Source: Selenomonas sp. AE3005 (GTDB lineage Bacteria > Bacillota > Negativicutes > Selenomonadales > Selenomonadaceae). Taken from it: a DNA stretch of 64,000 bases. The stretch lies in assembly GCF_000686945.1 (NCBI RefSeq), contig NZ_KK366040.1:186001-250000 (forward strand). The letters are read 5' to 3'. The position numbers and the translations under genes are program-made. Positions 2,939 through 11,800 of the stretch are shown here, one piece after another; position 1 is the first letter of the stretch, and each line of letters begins with the position of its first letter. The notes below the pieces were generated by a model. That model was not told where the DNA came from and did no database searches. It worked only from the letters and a program-made list of their open reading frames with translations.

Positions 2939-3355
2939 ATGAATCCGGAAATAGTGGATACGATGGTGCGGGCGGCCATGCAGGTCATGGATAATGCCTA
3001 CGTACCTTATGGTAAGGCGGCCATAGGAGCATGTGTGCTGGCCAGTGATGGGACTTTTTACACAGGCTGCAATATAGAAAATGCCATACCGCGCCTGTCG
3101 GTTTTTGCGGAGGAAGTAGCTATGTACCGTGCCGTGGCTGATGGCAAACGCGAATTTGACGCCATCGCCATAATCGCTGATACGGAAGAGCCCTTTATCC
3201 CCAATGGTGCTGTATGCCAGCTGCTGGCAGAGTTTGATGTACAGGAAATAATTATGACCAATATGGATGGCGTAGTTAAGACAGCCAAGCTGAGTGACCT
3301 GCTGCCGAATGCCAAGGCGCCGATGGATAATGCGTTGCGCCCAACTGAGGAATAA
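2939..3355 (+). CDS. Cytidine-deaminase-like protein lacking all zinc-binding cysteines
   Basis: The 138-residue protein follows cytidine deaminase end to end: YVPYGKAAIGACVLASDG, TGCNIENA, then the active-site helix. In canonical enzymes zinc is held by Cys in CAE and by two Cys in PCGAC. Here the first motif reads SVFAEEVA (Cys to Phe, catalytic Glu kept) and the second reads PNGAVCQ (both Cys lost, to Asn and Val, with a Cys one residue later). I checked these codons in the DNA. So the fold is clear but zinc catalysis is unlikely by the usual mechanism. The ATG at 2939 is preceded by AAAGGAG; longer in-frame starts overlap mgtC and lack a good site. It may be a nucleoside-binding pseudoenzyme. 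Confidence 0.82.
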   Translation: MNPEIVDTMVRAAMQVMDNAYVPYGKAAIGACVLASDGTFYTGCNIENAIPRLSVFAEEVAMYRAVADGKREFDAIAIIADTEEPFIPNGAVCQLLAEFDVQEIIMTNMDGVVKTAKLSDLLPNAKAPMDNALRPTEE

Positions 3356-3408
3356 CGCGGTAGAATATGTATCCCGACTTTTGACATTATAATAAAGCTA
3401 AAGTTTTG

Positions 3409-3443
3409 CCCCCTTTCTGTCGATATATATGACAGAAAGGGGG
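3409..3443 (+). promoter_or_regulatory. Hairpin sequestering the ribosome-binding site of the next gene
   Basis: CCCCCTTTCTGTC (3409-3421) pairs perfectly with GACAGAAAGGGGG (3431-3443) around a 9-base AU-rich loop. The 3' arm contains the purine-rich AAGGGGG that serves as Shine-Dalgarno for the ATG at 3452. In the folded mRNA the site would be buried. There is no T-run after it, so a terminator role is unlikely. It could be a thermometer or a protein-controlled switch. Confidence 0.6.
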
Positions 3444-3451
3444 CTGTATTT

Positions 3452-3904
3452 ATGTCACAGATGGCTATGGAAACGCTGCTGACTTTGCAAAAGCTGGCAG
3501 ATAAATCATATAAAGGCACGAAAACTGCTGTTAATAAGACTGCGGACGGTGAGAGTTTTGCGGATATATGGAATGAGGTAAAGAGAGAACAGGAAGAATG
3601 GGACAAGACTCTTAATGAGTATGACCTGACGAAGTATAAGCTGGGCCTGATGGACAGCTTTTGGTCAGACAGCCGCAAAAAGACGCAGGATTATATGTAC
3701 AGCTATTATAAACGCCAGCAGCGTTCGCTGAATCAGCAGGCTATTAACGAAGTGGCGCAGAATATCGCCTGGCTGAATCAGCTGAATAACAGCGGCCTCC
3801 TTAACGGAAATATCGACACCGCAGCTGCCCAGGCTACCGGCAAGGCGCTGTCAGCAGCCCTAAAGACCACCATGCTGGCCAGTATCGTAAGCGTCAAAGC
3901 TTAA
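3452..3904 (+). CDS. Hypothetical protein, 3' end replaced by IS66 end
   Basis: I do not recognise the family. The 150-residue product is helical and polar, with a heptad-like Gln/Lys/Tyr-rich middle and an Ala-rich C-terminus; no signal peptide or membrane segment. The last five codons (VSVKA) and the stop come from the terminal repeat of the IS66 unit that begins at 3887. Joining 3452-3886 to 9821-9856 across the duplicated target site restores a 156-codon frame ending RNFQVNSFLGL, followed by a terminator at 9861. So the insertion removed only the last eleven native residues, and the protein may still work. Translation may be controlled by the upstream hairpin. Confidence 0.75.
   Translation: MSQMAMETLLTLQKLADKSYKGTKTAVNKTADGESFADIWNEVKREQEEWDKTLNEYDLTKYKLGLMDSFWSDSRKKTQDYMYSYYKRQQRSLNQQAINEVAQNIAWLNQLNNSGLLNGNIDTAAAQATGKALSAALKTTMLASIVSVKA
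3879..3886. repeat. Target-site duplication CCAGTATC, left copy
   Basis: CCAGTATC immediately precedes the left terminal repeat (GTAAGCGTC, 3887). The identical 8-mer follows the right terminal repeat at 9813-9820. Eight bases is the duplication length known for IS66-family elements. Confidence 0.92.
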
Positions 3905-4038
3905 GGCGTATTCCAGCCATTCTATTAGTGTGAGATAATAACATCAACAAATTAAAGTTTTGCCGAATGTCTCAGAGTTTCGGCAAAACTTCAAAATGGA
4001 GGTGTTTTCTTGGCAGAGAATATATTGGAAATACGAAC
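3887..4038 (+). mobile_element. IS66 end fragment with first ten codons of tnpA
   Basis: This 152-base stretch is the reverse complement of 9661-9812. It begins with the terminal repeat GTAAGCGTC and contains a hairpin (AGTTTTGCCGAA/TTCGGCAAAACT), an AATGGAGG site and a TTG start at 4010. The tnpA frame runs MAENILEIRT and then meets TAA at 4040, just past the break point. The gap from here to the gene at 4234 also holds the inverted repeat TTAAGTTAT/ATAACTTAA (about 4079-4113) and the hairpin at 4117. Confidence 0.9.
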
Positions 4039-4116
4039 TTAAATATTATCATAAAAAGTAAACAGGCTCAAGTTATCATTTAAGTTATTCGTTTGTATAT
4101 CTGATATAACTTAAAA

Positions 4117-4138
4117 AACGCCTACACGGATAGGCGTT
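4117..4138. terminator. Bidirectional intrinsic terminator-like hairpin
   Basis: AACGCCTA, loop CACGGA, TAGGCGTT, with an A-run before and TTTT after. It could shield the cargo genes from transcription coming from outside the transposon. Confidence 0.6.
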
Positions 4139-4233
4139 TTAGTCGAAATATATTTAGTCATGGGCAGGAGAACGACGGGAAAAGCCCGAATTATCTAAGG
4201 CGATAAGAGGATTTCGCCGCATTGTAGGGGAAC

Positions 4234-4602
4234 ATGGCAATTATCAAGAAAATAACTATGTATGTCGCAATTGATGAGAGCAAACTTCTTAATGACAGCT
4301 ACTACAAAGAACGAATCGAGGACGATATTGAGGAAGGCTATACTCAAGAGGAATCGCTGAGCAACCGCGCATCAGACGCACTGGAGCTTATCATGGAGAA
4401 TGCTATATACAACGTTTACGTCCAAGTTGCCGGAGTCCATGCAGCGCTTATTGCAGGCGGCCTGAGGATTTTATCTCTTGAGACATACGGTTTTCAAGGA
4501 GCCGTTAGTATTTTCTATGTGGGAAGTTTGAGGAAGAATATATTATCGTTCACAAGTAAAGATGAGGTAGAAACAGCATTTTTCAACAGAATTTTTGATT
4601 AG
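4234..4602 (+). CDS. Hypothetical cargo protein, 122 aa
   Basis: I do not recognise this protein. It is a small acidic soluble protein with no signal peptide or clear membrane helix. The N-terminus is beta-like (MAIIKKITMYVAID), followed by a charged helix (DDIEEGYTQEESLSNRASDALELIMENAI) and alternating hydrophobic strands. The ATG has AGGGG eight bases upstream. It lies 28 bases before the flagellin gene on the same strand inside the transposon, so co-transcription is likely. A chaperone, glycosylation factor or regulator for the flagellin would fit the position, but nothing in the sequence shows this. Confidence 0.65.
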   Translation: MAIIKKITMYVAIDESKLLNDSYYKERIEDDIEEGYTQEESLSNRASDALELIMENAIYNVYVQVAGVHAALIAGGLRILSLETYGFQGAVSIFYVGSLRKNILSFTSKDEVETAFFNRIFD

Positions 4603-4630
4603 TATATCTTGGGGAAGCGGGTGAACTATC

Positions 4631-7201
4631 ATGTCTATGGTATTGGCACATAATAATGCGGCTATGCAAGCACTCCATGAAAATCAAAAGAATTCCAATA
4701 GGTTATCGAAAGATTTACAAAAAGTGGCTAGTGGAATGAAGATAAATGGGGCTGGTGATAGTGCTGCTGAATATGCTATATCCGAAAAAATGCGGACAAG
4801 AATTAGAGGCCTAGACCAAGACATTCAAAATGTACAAAATGGCAGAGCACTTTTATCTGTGGCTGATGGTGGTATACAAAGCATCATTGATGAGTTACGA
4901 AGCCTGAAGGAGTTGGCAATCAATTCCGCCAATGACCACAATAGCAGTATAGACCGTGCGATCCTTCAGGAAGAATTTAATCAGAGAAGGGCTAATATAG
5001 AAGAAATTGCTGTTGAAACGAATTATAACGGAATTCCCCTGTTGGATGGAAGATGGTGTCAATTACTATGGGAAGATGGACAAACTGACCCTAAAATTAT
5101 CAGTCAAAATGTTTCTAGCAATACTACAACGGGAACTGTTTCGACAACGGTAGTTGGCCCAAATGTATCTGTTAGTACGATACCGTCTACCAAGAAAACA
5201 GTTAATTCCAGTACGACAGTTATTTCATCAACTCCTCCGGCGACAACAGGAATGACAACAGTGGGACCAATTACCGGTACACCTGTCGTTACAAGTGTAA
5301 CTTCTACAACAGGCCCAACGGTAACATCGTCATCCACGACGAGTTCAAATTCTAATATCGTCAAGAATGGAAACAAAACTACCGTTACGGATACAGATGT
5401 TACAACAACCAATAATACTGCAACCACAATAACCACAACTACAGATACGACAACGGTACAGAAGGTGACAACGACAACTTTTGTAACCTGTAATGAAATT
5501 ACTACGACCAAACCAGAAGAGCCTATTCTAATAACTAATGGAACAACATCTATCACTGCTAATGGCGTATACAGATTTGCTTCGGATTACACTGGAACTC
5601 TGACAATAAGTGCACCAACTGTGGAAATAATGGGTCCCGAAGATGGTTCAACGGTGAATGATGTATATATTGTAGATAATGGCTTACAGGATCTCTACTT
5701 AAAGGATGTAAGTATTTCCAATAATGGTGATGATTCAACGATACGATTTGATGCATTGGGTTCAAATACGCTTCATTTGTTAGGGACAAATACTATTTAT
5801 GAAGAAGGAAATTATCCTGGGCTTAGTATACCACGCCCTAAAAATACTGCATGCATTAATGCTGGTGGCAATCTGTCAGTGGTTGGTAGTGGTAGTTTAT
5901 CCATAGATTCTAAATTCTTAAATAATGGAGCAATAATCGGTAGTGATTGTGAAGGAACCTGTGGTAATATAGCACTCGGTCAAGGAATAACAATAAATAT
6001 AGTTCAAGAAAATAATGGTGGTGCTGCCGGAATAGGGGGGGGTGCTGGTGAAGCAGCATCATGTGGGGATATAACGATAGGCAGCAATTCCAATATTACA
6101 GTAAAAAGATATACGACCCCTGGAGGTACAGTAGATAATGATAACCCAGGTGTGGCAATTGGTGCTGGACAAATAAGTGCTCGGCCACAAGTTAATGTTA
6201 ATATGCCACCTAAATGTGGTAATATTATTATTTATTCTAATGCAAATGTTACCGCTTATGGGCAAAAAGGCGCAGGTATTGGCTGTGGTGCTGGGGCAAG
6301 TTCCTGTGGAAATATCGTAATTTATTCCGATGCCAAGGTGGACGCAAAATCACAATCAGTAACAGGCAGTGCGGCAATAGGCAGTGGAACTGGTGGATTT
6401 GATTCGCTTGTTCCTTCAATACGTTACAAATCAACCTGTGGAGATATTAAGATATATTCTTATTCAAGTGGTAATGTAAAAGCTGTTGCTACATCGCTTG
6501 ATGCGCAGGCTATCGGAAAAGGGAATACAAGTTCTAATTATTCAGCCTACAGTATAGTGGGGACTGTATCGTTATTAGACACAGTTATGCAAAAGGCAGG
6601 TGGCATTGCTGATTACAGCGAACTGAGTCTCGGCGAAACTACGGTTACGGAATATGAAATAATCACCGATACTATTGAAACTACAGAAACAACAGGAACT
6701 ATAACAGAGACAACTACAACGCAATATGACACATGGACAGAAACAACGGAAAATATCTCAACGACGGTTTATGAAGATGGCGAATATGAGCGGAGGGCAA
6801 GGTTAAATAAACCGTTGATTATCCATACGGGAACAAAAGCCAATGAGCATCTGCGTGTCTATATCGAAAACATGCGGTTAAGTGCATTAGGTATTGAAGA
6901 TACTAAGATAGACCCCTTGGAAGCTGCGGTATCAGCCTTGGACGTAATTGACGAAGCTATAGAATATGCGTTGAATAATGCGACTAAGGTCGGTGCCTAT
7001 TCATCAAGGCTAGGACAAACAAACGAAACTTTAGTTGTATCACATGAAAGCACAACAGTTAGTGAATCGACCATACGTGATACAGATATGGCAAAAGGCA
7101 TGGTTTCCTTGGTTAAGGATCAGATTCTTACACAAGCGTCACAGGCAATTTTAGCCCAAGCGAATCAAAGTTTGAGCAGTGTGCTATCGCTATTGCAATA
7201 A
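4631..7201 (+). CDS. Flagellin with large Thr-rich/repeat-domain insertion
   Basis: The N-terminal 141 residues are a typical flagellin D0-D1 (NNAAMQALHENQKNSNRLS, LQKVASGMKINGAGDSAAEYAIS, GIPLLDG). The last 140 are the matching C-terminal D1-D0 (LGIEDTKIDP, KVGAYSSRLGQTNETL, QILTQASQAILAQANQSLSSVLSLLQ). Between them lies an unusual insert: a Thr/Ser/Val-rich linker (about 155-297), a beta-rich domain (about 298-640) with five CG[ND]I repeats linked by Gly-rich AGIGxGxG turns, and a second Thr-rich linker (660-715). The repeats resemble carbohydrate-binding or beta-helix surface modules, and Cys is rare in flagellins. At 856 residues it is far longer than the 270-500 usual. It sits alone in transposon cargo with no other flagellar gene nearby. 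The flagellin call is firm; the insert's ligand is unknown. Confidence 0.93.
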   Translation: MSMVLAHNNAAMQALHENQKNSNRLSKDLQKVASGMKINGAGDSAAEYAISEKMRTRIRGLDQDIQNVQNGRALLSVADGGIQSIIDELRSLKELAINSANDHNSSIDRAILQEEFNQRRANIEEIAVETNYNGIPLLDGRWCQLLWEDGQTDPKIISQNVSSNTTTGTVSTTVVGPNVSVSTIPSTKKTVNSSTTVISSTPPATTGMTTVGPITGTPVVTSVTSTTGPTVTSSSTTSSNSNIVKNGNKTTVTDTDVTTTNNTATTITTTTDTTTVQKVTTTTFVTCNEITTTKPEEPILITNGTTSITANGVYRFASDYTGTLTISAPTVEIMGPEDGSTVNDVYIVDNGLQDLYLKDVSISNNGDDSTIRFDALGSNTLHLLGTNTIYEEGNYPGLSIPRPKNTACINAGGNLSVVGSGSLSIDSKFLNNGAIIGSDCEGTCGNIALGQGITINIVQENNGGAAGIGGGAGEAASCGDITIGSNSNITVKRYTTPGGTVDNDNPGVAIGAGQISARPQVNVNMPPKCGNIIIYSNANVTAYGQKGAGIGCGAGASSCGNIVIYSDAKVDAKSQSVTGSAAIGSGTGGFDSLVPSIRYKSTCGDIKIYSYSSGNVKAVATSLDAQAIGKGNTSSNYSAYSIVGTVSLLDTVMQKAGGIADYSELSLGETTVTEYEIITDTIETTETTGTITETTTTQYDTWTETTENISTTVYEDGEYERRARLNKPLIIHTGTKANEHLRVYIENMRLSALGIEDTKIDPLEAAVSALDVIDEAIEYALNNATKVGAYSSRLGQTNETLVVSHESTTVSESTIRDTDMAKGMVSLVKDQILTQASQAILAQANQSLSSVLSLLQ

Positions 7202-7393
7202 ATGAAAAAAGGGGATTCACCAAATTTAAGATTTTGAGCCTCCAAAGGGATTTTATAACGTAATCGTCAAAATATAGTATGTCCCGATAGACATGAAAAA
7301 AGCAGCCCTAAGGCTGCGTTGGACGGTGGCATCATTATTCAGTTGGCAGAACCACATTCCACGGAAGATATTTTTCTAAAAAAGTGTCGTCTT

Positions 7394-8893
7394 TTAGCGA
7401 ATCTTCCTGGGAAATGTTCGTGAAAATGTATTCCAGATATTCCTTGTATCAACTTTGTTGGCTATACATGTCTCTATGAGGCTGTAGGCTGCGGCACTGG
7501 CTGCAGCACCGGCAGGAGAACCGGAGAATATCCAGCTCTTGCGGCTAATGGTAAATGGCCGGATGCTTCTTTCTGCAAGATTATTGGAAATGCTGCAATT
7601 ACCATCACGGAGATAGTTCATCAATTCGTTGCTGTGAGACAGGCAGTAATTTATGGCTTTAGAAATCTTGGATGCTTGCGGGACATGGCCCTTTTCTTTT
7701 TCAAGGTACTCAAATAAGGCTAGAAGAATTGGCCTAGCCTTTTCTTTCCACTGTTTTTGCCGTTCCTCAGCCGAAAGCTCCTGACAATCCTGTTCAATTT
7801 TGAATAAGCGGCCCATTTCCTTAATTACCCGGCCAGGGATGGTCTCCTCAGATTGCTCAATATTTTCAGGCAGGGCTTCAGCAAATTTTAGTCTTGCATG
7901 AACCATACAGCAGCAATGGATTACATCGTCCACCTGACTGTATCCTGCATAGGCATCTGTATGGAGATAGCCGTGAAATCCTTCAAGAAATTTACTGGCA
8001 CATGCTCCTGCTCTGGAAGGCTGGTATTCAAAGAGCCTTATGTGGTGCTTGGCATATTGCCCTGTAGCATAGAGCCACATATAAGATTTGCTCTTATTCT
8101 TCCGGCCCTTCTCCTTAAGCACCTAAACCGGCGTTTCATCCGCATGCAGGATTTTTTCCTGCAGGAGCTGCTTTTTCATCAGCTCAATAAGGGGCTTAAG
8201 GTAATCCCTGTACGCATAATGAATCCAGTTTGCCATGGTCTGCTTGCTAAGGTTAAGTCCAAGAATCTGCCATAGCTTTTCCTGTCGTTGCAACGGCAAT
8301 GCAAACTGGAACTTGTTGAGCATGGTGGCAGTCATCACGGATGGCGTAACCGATGAGTTGGGAATCAGCGGCTTATGTACCGGTGCCTTTATAAATTCCA
8401 CATGTTCATCATTTTCACAGGCTTTGCACTTGTAGACCCACTGGTATATTTCATCAACAATAATCTTTGCGGGGATAACTCGCACCTCATCGCGGACATG
8501 CTCTTTTCCAACGGGAACCAGCTCATCACTGCCGCAAGAAGGGCAACGGTGGTCCTTTTCCGGAATATCCAAAATTACCACATTGCGTTCTGCCATGGAA
8601 AGGTCAAGCTTCCTTTGCGTACGCTGCTTCGTACGCTTATGTGCCTTAACTGTTGTAGACTCTTCAGAGAGCTCTGGAGAAGATTCCTGCTCAACTTCAT
8701 TAAACAGAGACAACTGGTCAGGATTGGGCAATATTATCTTGGTGCGTTCAGATTTGGACGAAAAAAGACGCCTGCGCATAGAAGCATTTTCTTCTTTCAG
8801 AAGTGCTATTTCCTGCTTATAACGCAGCTCCATCTCAGCAATTTTTTGCTCATATTCAGCTCTGAGTTTTTCAAATAAGTTCTTATCTGTCAC
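7394..8893 (-). pseudogene. tnpC: IS66 transposase TnpC with in-frame stop
   Basis: The frame runs 499 codons from a GTG at 8893 (GGGAGAA upstream), the normal IS66 TnpC length. It has an N-terminal coiled coil (LFEKLRAEYEQKIAEMELRYK), a Cys-rich finger (CPSCG...YKCKACE) and the DDE-type core around HADETPV. Directly after HADETPV, at 8123-8125, a TAG replaces the CAG (Gln) expected in the family's DETPVQVL motif; the frame then continues VLKEKGRKNKSKSYMW to the end with no shift. A single C-to-T change explains it. Unless the stop is read through, the element cannot make full transposase. A longer start at 9058 overlaps tnpB and is unlikely. Confidence 0.9.
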
Positions 8894-8985
8894 GCAAAAT
8901 TCTCCCGTATAAAATATACCTATATTATACCCAAAAATCCTTGTGGATGCAGTATTCACAAGGATTTTGGGCAAATTATTCAGGA

Positions 8986-9342
8986 TTAAATTGTGTGGGT
9001 TGGGTACGACTTTTTTACACTTGTCTGCTGGATTATTTCCAATCCTTCCATGAGCCATCTTAACTGCTGTTCAGAAATGCTTATGGCTTCATTTTTAGAT
9101 TGGGGCCAGCGAAATTTACCGTTATCCAAACGTTTATACAGCAGGCTAAAGCCATCCCCGTCCCAGAAAAGGGCTTTTATTCGGTCTTTACGCCTTCCGC
9201 AGAACATGAATACATCCTGTGAAAAAGGGTTAAGCTTAAAATTTTGCTGCACTATAGCCGCCAACCCGTCAATAGACTTTCGCATATCCGTATGCCCGCA
9301 AGCGAGAAAAACGTGCTCGGCAGTAATGTTCTTGACCAGCAT
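8986..9342 (-). CDS. tnpB: IS66 family accessory protein TnpB
   Basis: This 118-residue protein is the IS66 Orf2 protein: VFLACGHTDMRKSIDGLAAIV near the start, then FCGRRKDRIKALFWDGDGFSLLYKRLDNGKFRWP, which is near-diagnostic of the family. TnpB is needed with TnpA and TnpC for transposition, though its biochemical job is not settled. It starts two bases after the tnpA stop and appears intact. The RBS lies within the end of tnpA. Confidence 0.95.
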   Translation of the reverse strand: MLVKNITAEHVFLACGHTDMRKSIDGLAAIVQQNFKLNPFSQDVFMFCGRRKDRIKALFWDGDGFSLLYKRLDNGKFRWPQSKNEAISISEQQLRWLMEGLEIIQQTSVKKSYPTHTI

Positions 9343-9344
9343 GG

Positions 9345-9689
9345 CTACATTTCCTGCAGAACATTCAGCACTGTTTTCAGGGATGCTTTGTTTACATTGC
9401 CTTCAACCTCAACTGACATCCCACCAATATGAATGGTAATCGTACCAGGATTGGCAAGGGCAGGTACCTCCACAGTTGGTGGCAACTGAACAAACTCAGT
9501 TTCTGCAGGCTGAGGCTGAGCAACATATTCCCTGATTTTTCGCAGCCAATAATAATATGCATGCCAGCTGATATTTCTGTCTTCACAGAATTTCGTTACG
9601 CTCATGTCGGATTCCTTGCATTCTTTAATTATGCTCTGCCATTGTGCCATGCGGACTTTGGTTCGTATTTCCAATATATTCTCCGCCAA
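9345..9689 (-). CDS. tnpA: IS66 family accessory protein TnpA
   Basis: This 114-residue protein has an N-terminal helix-turn-helix region (WQSIIKECKESDMSVTKFCEDRNISWHAYYYWLRKIRE) as in IS66/IS3-type TnpA, and a C-terminal beta-rich part (TITIHIGGMSVEVEG). It probably binds the element's ends. The start is TTG at 9689, with GGAGGTG nine bases before. The first ten codons are repeated at 4010-4039 in the opposite arm of the composite unit. Confidence 0.9.
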   Translation of the reverse strand: MAENILEIRTKVRMAQWQSIIKECKESDMSVTKFCEDRNISWHAYYYWLRKIREYVAQPQPAETEFVQLPPTVEVPALANPGTITIHIGGMSVEVEGNVNKASLKTVLNVLQEM

Positions 9690-9812
9690 GAAAACACCTC
9701 CATTTTGAAGTTTTCCCGAAACTCTGAGATATTCGGCAAAACTTTAATTTGTTGATGTTATTATCTCACACTAATAGAATGGCTGGAATACGCCTTAAGC
9801 TTTGACGCTTAC

Positions 9813-9820
9813 CCAGTATC
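9813..9820. repeat. Target-site duplication CCAGTATC, right copy
   Basis: It is identical to 3879-3886 and abuts the right terminal repeat of the composite transposon. Confidence 0.92.
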
Positions 9821-9856
9821 AGGAACTTTCAGGTCAATTCGTTTTTAGGGTTATAG
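9821..9856 (+). pseudogene. Severed 3' end of the gene at 3452
   Basis: Read in the frame set by joining 3886 to 9821, these bases encode RNFQVNSFLGL and a TAG stop. They have no start of their own. The terminator five bases further on would have been the original end of the interrupted transcription unit. Confidence 0.75.
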
Positions 9857-9860
9857 ATCA

Positions 9861-9899
9861 AAAAAGCAGCTCATCACTTGATGAGCTGCTAGTTTTTTT
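9861..9899. terminator. Bidirectional terminator between interrupted gene and fruA
   Basis: GCAGCTCATCA (9866-9876), loop CT, TGATGAGCTGC (9879-9889), flanked by an A-run and by TTTTTTT. It fits convergent transcription from the left gene and from fruA. Confidence 0.88.
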
Positions 9900-9910
9900 A
9901 TGCGATATTA

Positions 9911-11800
9911 TTATTTAAGCGGCTTTTTGAGTACGGAGAGTACTGCACAGCCTACTACAGCACCGATAAGGATAGCTGCAATATACATACCGGCATTGCC
10001 GATGGTCGGTACTACGAAGATGCCGCCATGGGGAGCACGCAGAGTGCAGTCAAAGGCCATGGAGAGGGCACCAGCCGTAGCGGAGCCGATGAATACGGAA
10101 GGAATTACACGCAGGGGGTCACCAGCGGCAAACGGGATAGCACCTTCAGTGATGAAGGACATACCCATTACATAGTTGGTAATACCAGCTTTGCGTTCGC
10201 TTTCGGTGAAACGGTTCTTGAAGAACGTGGTGCACAGAGCGATAGCCAGAGGCGGAACCATACCGCCAGCCATAACAGCGGCCATTACATGATATTCACC
10301 GGAGGCCAGGAGACCCGTACCAGTTACATAAGCAGCCTTGTTGATGGGGCCGCCCATGTCGATAGCCATCATGCCGCCCATAACGATACCCAGCATAATG
10401 CGGGCGTTCGGGTCCATGTTCTTCAGCGTGTCAACGAGCCAGGTGTTGATAGCACCAACCGGCGGAGCAATGATGAACATGCTGATGAAACCGATAATCA
10501 GAATACCGAAGAACGGATAGAGCAGAACGGGTTTGATACCGTCGAGAGATTCCGGCAGGCAGGAGAAGGCTTTCTTCAGGAAGTTTACAGCATAACCTGC
10601 TACGAAACCGGCTACGAGAGCACCGAGGAAACCGGAGCCAGTGCTGCCAGCCAGAGCACCGCCGACGAAACCTACAGCCAGACCCGGACGGTCAGCAATG
10701 GACATGGCGATAAAACCAGCGAGAATCGGCAGCATGAAACCGAAGGATGCACCGCCGATATCCATGAAGAACTTAGCCAGCGGCGTGTTGGAACCGAATT
10801 TGCTCGGGTCGATGGAGTAATCATCAAACAGGAAGGCCATGGCAATCAGGATACCACCGCCAACAACGAAGGGCAGCATGTGGCTGACACCGTTCATGAG
10901 GTGCTTGTAAATCTGACGGCCGAGGCTTTCACCGGAAACGTCAGCTGCACCGGCCTCTTCATCAGCGCCGGACGCATGGTAGATGGGAGCGTTGCCGGAC
11001 AGGGCACGGTCAAGGAGTTCGTCAGCCTTGTTGATGCCGTCAGCAACCTTGGTGATGATGGTCGGTTTGCCATCGAAACGAGCCATAGCGACGTTCTTGT
11101 CAGCAGCGACGATAATAGCGTCAGCCTTGGCGATTTCTTCAGCGGTCAGTACGTTCTTAGCACCGCCGGAGCCATTGGTTTCAACCTTGATGGTGATGCC
11201 GCGCTTTTTAGCGTGCTGTTCGAGGCTTTCAGCAGCCATGAAGGTGTGGGCAATACCAGTCGGGCAGGCCGTAACAGCCAGCACCTGAATGTGGTCAGCT
11301 TGCGGAGCTGCCTGAGCAGTTTCGGCAGCCGGAGCTACGAAATTGCCATCTTCTTTAGCATCGATGAGTTTCAGGAATTCTTCTTTGCTCTTAGCGGCAA
11401 TCAGGGCCTCCTTGAAGTCCGGGTCCATAATCATGGTAGCCAGCTTGGACAGGATAGCCAGATGGTCGTCATTGGCAGAGTCCGGAGCAGCAATCATGAA
11501 GAACAGGCGGCTCGGCAGGCCGTCCATGGACGCAAAATCCATACCGCCGGGAACCGTCATAGCGGCCAGACCGGCAGCCTTTACGCCAGCACTCTTGGCA
11601 TGCGGCGTGGCGATACCATCGCCGAGGCCGGTCGTGCCGGAGGCCTCACGGGCAAAGACATCTTTCTTGTACTGTTCCTTGTCGGACAGGTTGCCGCCAG
11701 CCTCCATGAGGTCGGCCAGCTGATTGATGGCTGCGTTTTTATCAGCCGGGGAAGTACCCAGAGCAATGCTTTCGCTCTTGAGCAGGTCGGTAATACGCAT
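9911..11800 (-). CDS. fruA: PTS fructose transporter, IIA-IIB-IIC fusion
   Basis: The 629-residue protein imports fructose while phosphorylating it. Domains in order: IIA (about 1-145) with its phosphorylatable His in GIATPHAKS; IIB (about 170-270) with active-site Cys in VLAVTACPTGIAHTFMAAE; and IIC (about 295-629), with roughly ten membrane segments and the substrate-site motif MDMGGPINKAAYVTG. The ATG follows GGAGAGAACATT. It is the last gene of the fruR-fruK-fruA operon, 76 bases after fruK, and ends at a shared terminator. Fructose 1-phosphate is the expected product, taken on by FruK. Confidence 0.96.
   Translation of the reverse strand: MRITDLLKSESIALGTSPADKNAAINQLADLMEAGGNLSDKEQYKKDVFAREASGTTGLGDGIATPHAKSAGVKAAGLAAMTVPGGMDFASMDGLPSRLFFMIAAPDSANDDHLAILSKLATMIMDPDFKEALIAAKSKEEFLKLIDAKEDGNFVAPAAETAQAAPQADHIQVLAVTACPTGIAHTFMAAESLEQHAKKRGITIKVETNGSGGAKNVLTAEEIAKADAIIVAADKNVAMARFDGKPTIITKVADGINKADELLDRALSGNAPIYHASGADEEAGAADVSGESLGRQIYKHLMNGVSHMLPFVVGGGILIAMAFLFDDYSIDPSKFGSNTPLAKFFMDIGGASFGFMLPILAGFIAMSIADRPGLAVGFVGGALAGSTGSGFLGALVAGFVAGYAVNFLKKAFSCLPESLDGIKPVLLYPFFGILIIGFISMFIIAPPVGAINTWLVDTLKNMDPNARIMLGIVMGGMMAIDMGGPINKAAYVTGTGLLASGEYHVMAAVMAGGMVPPLAIALCTTFFKNRFTESERKAGITNYVMGMSFITEGAIPFAAGDPLRVIPSVFIGSATAGALSMAFDCTLRAPHGGIFVVPTIGNAGMYIAAILIGAVVGCAVLSVLKKPLK

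Follow-up and report, generated by a model that had tools for sequence, protein, structure and literature searches.

The locus raises the question of how a giant flagellin gene came to lie between two inverted IS66 ends inside a gene that is conserved in its genus, and in particular whether it was carried there by a composite transposon, as the original prediction held. The window, as the whole stretch of DNA analysed is called here, comprises 64,000 nucleotides (G000:C3:186001-250000) of a 2.82-Mb draft assembly, in 25 contigs, of a Selenomonas-like bacterium. The unit in question spans positions 3887-9812 of the window (5,926 bp), has IS66 ends outermost and shows a G+C content of 37-44%, compared with 50% for the window. 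Its features are collected in Table 1.

Table 1. Features of the unit and of the interrupted gene (positions in the window).
Feature	Position	Strand	Basis or remark
Interrupted host gene, 145 codons kept	3452-3904	+	comparison with genus relatives
Target duplication, left copy, CCAGTATC	3879-3886		abuts left arm
Left arm, 152 bp of the IRL/tnpA end of IS66, starting GTAAGCGTCAAAG	3887-4038	+	sequence comparison
Hairpin in the IS66 end, over the tnpA ribosome-binding site	3940-4006	+	z -4.9 against shuffles
Small ORF, 122 aa, no family	4234-4602	+	ORF; relatives for the middle part alone
Remnant of the right end of an unrelated IS/MITE, ending ...TGTGGGAAGTTTGAG	4406-4532	+	repeat in G023, G010, G004, G013, G011
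Cargo flagellin, 856 aa: Flagellin_N, Thr-rich linker, beta-rich (beta-helix-like) centre, Flagellin_C	4631-7201	+	domain search and structure prediction
Complete IS66, right arm, 2,553 bp; outer IRL at 9812, inner IRR at 7260	7260-9812	-	sequence comparison and gene content
tnpC, DDE transposase: PF03050 with zf-IS66 and LZ_Tnp_IS66	about 7394-8896	-	domain search
tnpB, PF05717	8986-9342	-	domain search
tnpA, HTH_Tnp_1-like, slightly under the Pfam cut-off	9345-9689	-	domain search
Target duplication, right copy, CCAGTATC	9813-9820		abuts right arm
Displaced 3′ end of the host gene, coding RNFQVNSFLGL and stop in the join	9821-9856	+	empty-site join

The boundaries of the unit agree with those first proposed. 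On re-comparison, the inverted arms (the right one at 9661-9812) are 152 nt each and 98% identical, with three differences at arm positions 83, 98 and 129, and the same octamer stands directly outside both. The probability that a given 8-mer is matched by chance at a fixed place is about 1.5e-5. IS66 is known to make target duplications of 8 bp (PMC6778807, PMC3281130). The terminal inverted repeats also have the GTAA start typical of the family, with IRL GTAAGCGTCAAAG and IRR GTAATCGTCAAAA (at 7260, GTAATCGTCAAA). The left arm is, as had been claimed, an IS end alone, that of the tnpA side, and breaks off shortly past the tnpA start.

Both outward-facing ends of the unit are IRL, and the intact IRR sits internally. 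Beside this inner IRR stand the eight bases TTTATAAC, which differ from the octamer outside the unit, as would be expected at the inner end of a composite. The arrangement is that of a composite transposon in reduced form, in which the cargo lies between outward ends of one IS, the left copy is represented by its end, and a single target duplication surrounds the whole unit, with the empty site preserved in relatives.

The right arm belongs to the IS66 family: tnpA, tnpB and tnpC follow in order, and TnpC contains the DDE_Tnp_IS66 domain, with matches to PF13005 and PF13007 besides PF03050, notwithstanding one in-frame TAG. This stop lies at about codon 257 of tnpC, directly past the HADETPV motif, and cuts the DDE domain in two behind its first portion. 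Because of the TAG the unit is probably no longer autonomous; either the stop is an assembly error, or the unit is now immobile without help. Searched in full, the draft yielded no further complete copy of this type of IS66, and the one other IS66-like transposase match in the source genome contains two stops. Given the stop in tnpC and the lack of another complete copy in the genome, the present mobility of the unit is doubtful. The hairpin of the left IS66 end, whose arms are about 33 nt long, is found with base differences also in the right arm (9693-9759); it may keep outside transcription from turning on the transposase.

Elements of the same IS66 type occur in other genomes. Two genomes of a sister genus, G113 and G104, contain it at 82-83% identity, and G005 has an internally deleted copy about 95-96% identical to that of the window, in which the IRL side up to about position 306 is fused with 58 bp of the IRR side (L050:1-248). 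At the three places where the arms differ, G005 sides with the left arm at one and with the right arm at two. Since it agrees with each arm at different sites, the comparison indicates that both arms have changed or that they derive from different IS66 copies. Two contig ends of G005 (C84 and C117) were considered as the two sides of one short IS66 derivative, and this was dropped as their 8-bp flanks, GATATAGA and AACGTTCC, differ. In G113 a complete IS66 of the same type has a further, partial IRL 290 bp from it, oriented alike (L120:5240-8369, on C21); this was rejected as a second composite because the flanks mismatch. A search of viral contigs for the cargo and TnpC gave no match, and plasmid records gave weak tnpB-level matches only (68-74% identity across 4-8% of the IS).

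Evidence for insertion also comes from the interrupted gene. It is conserved in the genus with about 157 codons (154-159 aa in relatives), and no Pfam or NCBIfam family matched it. The insertion exchanges its last 11 residues for five from the IS end (VSVKA), followed by a stop. The empty site was modelled by joining 3300-3886 to 9821-10400 and was then compared with relatives. As had been predicted, it was found in 14 genus genomes, with the reading frame unbroken over the join and the target octamer present once; the relatives' gene ends in residues such as RNFQVNSFLGI. G017, G002 and G012 have exactly CCAGTATC as the octamer at the empty site; the other genomes, which are of different species, deviate from it by one to three substitutions. 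The presence of the empty site in 14 related genomes indicates that the unit was inserted into the 3′ end of a conserved gene.

The original prediction had named as cargo a giant chimeric flagellin and a small gene, and only the former held up. The flagellin ORF is intact and carries flagellin domains at both ends (PF00669, 104 bits; PF00700, 55.9 bits). Its centre is predicted to be all beta, at low confidence (pLDDT 61), and it is termed merely beta-helix-like because the PDB matches, the best of which are mostly beta-helix proteins, are not significant (best E 0.09). The small ORF, conversely, is probably a chimera that crosses what is left of another IS, and its status as true cargo is improbable. 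Its sole relatives are short stretches that coincide with a multi-genome repeat, mostly without a matching ORF, and in G023 the repeat forms the right-hand end of a small unit resembling an IS. Only the middle of the ORF has relatives, and the ORF is a doubtful one. A sigma-28-like promoter at 4180-4206 scored 10/12 and was not claimed, as it was matched by 37 of 300 shuffles; a search of Rfam gave no credible match.

A close relative of the flagellin occurs in one of the 22 genus genomes, G008, which is of another Selenomonas species, at 85-89% DNA identity. The homology is limited to the coding sequence with about 19 bases before it and five after (4612-7206). The G008 gene lies on two contigs, which would join within it: the first part follows genes for a methyltransferase and a Pin-like serine recombinase, the second precedes serC, and no IS66 was found near it on either contig. 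Judged by this distribution, the flagellin can be regarded as foreign to the insertion site, since congeners other than G008 have no close relative of it and the G008 copy adjoins serC without IS66. The contig break falls inside the gene at IS-end-like sequences, CTCAAACTTCGCA... and ...TGCGAAGTTTGAG, with TAACTAA on either side, which suggests that an IS with these ends, and with a TAACTAA duplication, has inserted into the G008 copy. The IS ends (L034:6110-6120 and L035:90-103) are of the same kind as the remnant beside the flagellin in the window. A scan of genome contigs for the flagellin centre returned the G008 record alone, a MAG with the label Selenomonas ruminantium RUG12654. The centre also has more remote relatives (42-52%) in G114, G087 and G027, each in a different neighbourhood.

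The two parts of the cargo gene give dN/dS values of 0.08 and 0.10 against the G008 flagellin, about 0.09 overall. Such values point to purifying selection on the cargo flagellin for most of the time since it split from the G008 copy, and suggest that it had a function in the past. The protein may be expressed and form part of the filament. Elsewhere in the source genome, two flagellin genes 2.8 kb apart (G000:C7:50232 and 53022; L131) have equal scores and match coordinates and are probably a recent tandem duplicate.

Transposition as an IS66-family composite very probably gives the best account of window 3887-9812, since one move of a two-IRL unit is enough to explain the ends as well as the duplication and the empty site. 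IS66 proteins would have acted on the two outward IRLs as transposon ends, in an IRL-IRL pairing, and would have been supplied by the unit's own copy before tnpC was broken or in trans by another copy. The whole 5.9-kb unit, with the flagellin inside, would thereby have entered the 3′ end of the conserved gene and duplicated 8 bp. The left stub may be the deletion remnant of a second IS66 copy, lost before or after the move, and owing to the stop in tnpC the unit would today be immobile without help in trans. Against this account it must be said that there is a single such unit in a single genome, with no second insertion bearing another duplication and no donor locus, that the arms, 2% apart, were not freshly copied from one element, and that the assembly is a draft. 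Compatible with it, and somewhat favoured, is the view that the composite is old and decayed: it would have transposed once and then lost the left IS66 and the function of tnpC, leaving the flagellin as a fixed accessory gene. The in-frame TAG, the reduction of the left arm to 152 bp, the IS remnant within the cargo and the divergence of the arms agree with such decay. However, neither the outer ends nor the octamers have decayed, so that the insertion is not very old, and a helper IS66 copy may be present in other strains.

Other histories account for the locus less well. A resident IS66 might have inserted alone and acquired the flagellin afterwards, by homologous recombination or by a second insertion inside the IS66; indeed, the interval between tnpC and IRR of an IS66 can house passenger genes (PMC12888890), and the remains of another IS lie inside the cargo. 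This course of events would, however, leave one outward IRL and one outward IRR, whereas here IRL is found at both outward ends and the IRR lies inside. The two outward IRLs with one duplication show that the locus is not simply one resident IS66, and later addition of the flagellin is improbable, as it requires an extra replacement of one end that left the duplication untouched. It would be more extraordinary still if the flagellin were the ancestral occupant of the site, with an IS66 that landed alongside and an octamer match due to coincidence. The match is exact and abuts both IS ends, and at this place 14 congeners, close and distant ones alike, have the gene uninterrupted and no flagellin; among the genomes compared, this reading is refuted.

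A wider claim, that surface-antigen genes hop as composites in this lineage, did not fare as well as the account of the locus itself. Neither the 22 genus genomes nor the 189 family genomes searched with the IS yielded another flagellin flanked by IS66, the G008 relative has no IS66 beside it, and no second copy of the unit turned up in searches of its own genome, the genus and the family (one genome per species). With one case found, there is no support for repeated hopping of flagellins in IS66 composites. Some mobility of the flagellin is nevertheless real, because it is found at unrelated places in different species. A serine recombinase domain lies within 1 kb of two of the 41 flagellins in seven genomes (G008 and G087), and this link is a lead and no result. 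In both genomes, a gene for a Pin/Mpi-like serine recombinase lies less than 1 kb upstream of an orphan giant flagellin (L034:3866-5324 with L035:1-1892; L100:326-6140); the recombinase gene is whole in G008 and a fragment in G087. In G087 it is seemingly duplicated, the second copy being split by about 1.8 kb with three small ORFs (L100:326-3404). A flagellin linked in this way is possibly a mobile or switchable islet. It is a tentative and rather unlikely extension that very large orphan flagellins with beta-rich centres form a class of accessory genes of the Selenomonadaceae, moved by different mobile elements (the IS66 composite here; in G008 and G087, serine-recombinase-linked islets), and that this gene movement would make the filament surface differ from species to species.

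The variable regions of flagellins are among the most diverse proteins known, and their horizontal transfer is thought to be common (PMC7018530). The vehicle of such transfer is seldom visible; here one is seen at base resolution, along with the duplication it made and the site as it stands empty in relatives. It is a single case, which does not show such movement to be common or to alter the filament. No description of a flagellin as the cargo of a composite transposon was found in the literature searched, the coverage of which is incomplete.

Second flagellins on mobile islets have been described in Escherichia coli (the flk islet; unilateral flagellar phase variation), work that PMC7018530 cites as its references 20 and 21. 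The flk islet resembles the present unit in being a second flagellin gene off the main locus and on acquired DNA. The E. coli islets move and are regulated by means other than an IS66 composite, whereas here the vehicle is such a composite and no integrase or repressor gene was seen in it. In construction the unit resembles Tn6097 of Paracoccus, a composite transposon with an ISPfe2 (IS1634 family) at either end (PMC3281130): cargo lies between two copies of one IS, with a single target duplication outside the pair. It differs from Tn6097 in that one arm is a 152-bp end, the IS is of the IS66 family, and the cargo is a flagellin in place of resistance or catabolic genes. With the tIS66 elements, which are IS66 with passenger genes such as ISPa75 with fosZ (PMC12888890), it shares IS66 tnpA, tnpB and tnpC, GTAA-starting ends and a single acquired gene travelling with the element. 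In tIS66, however, a single element encloses its passenger, between tnpC and IRR, whereas the flagellin here lies beyond the IRR, and a further IRL forms the other boundary. Both composite transposons and IS66 elements that carry passenger genes are already known (PMC3281130, PMC12888890), so the mechanism is an ordinary one and it is the flagellin cargo that is unusual.
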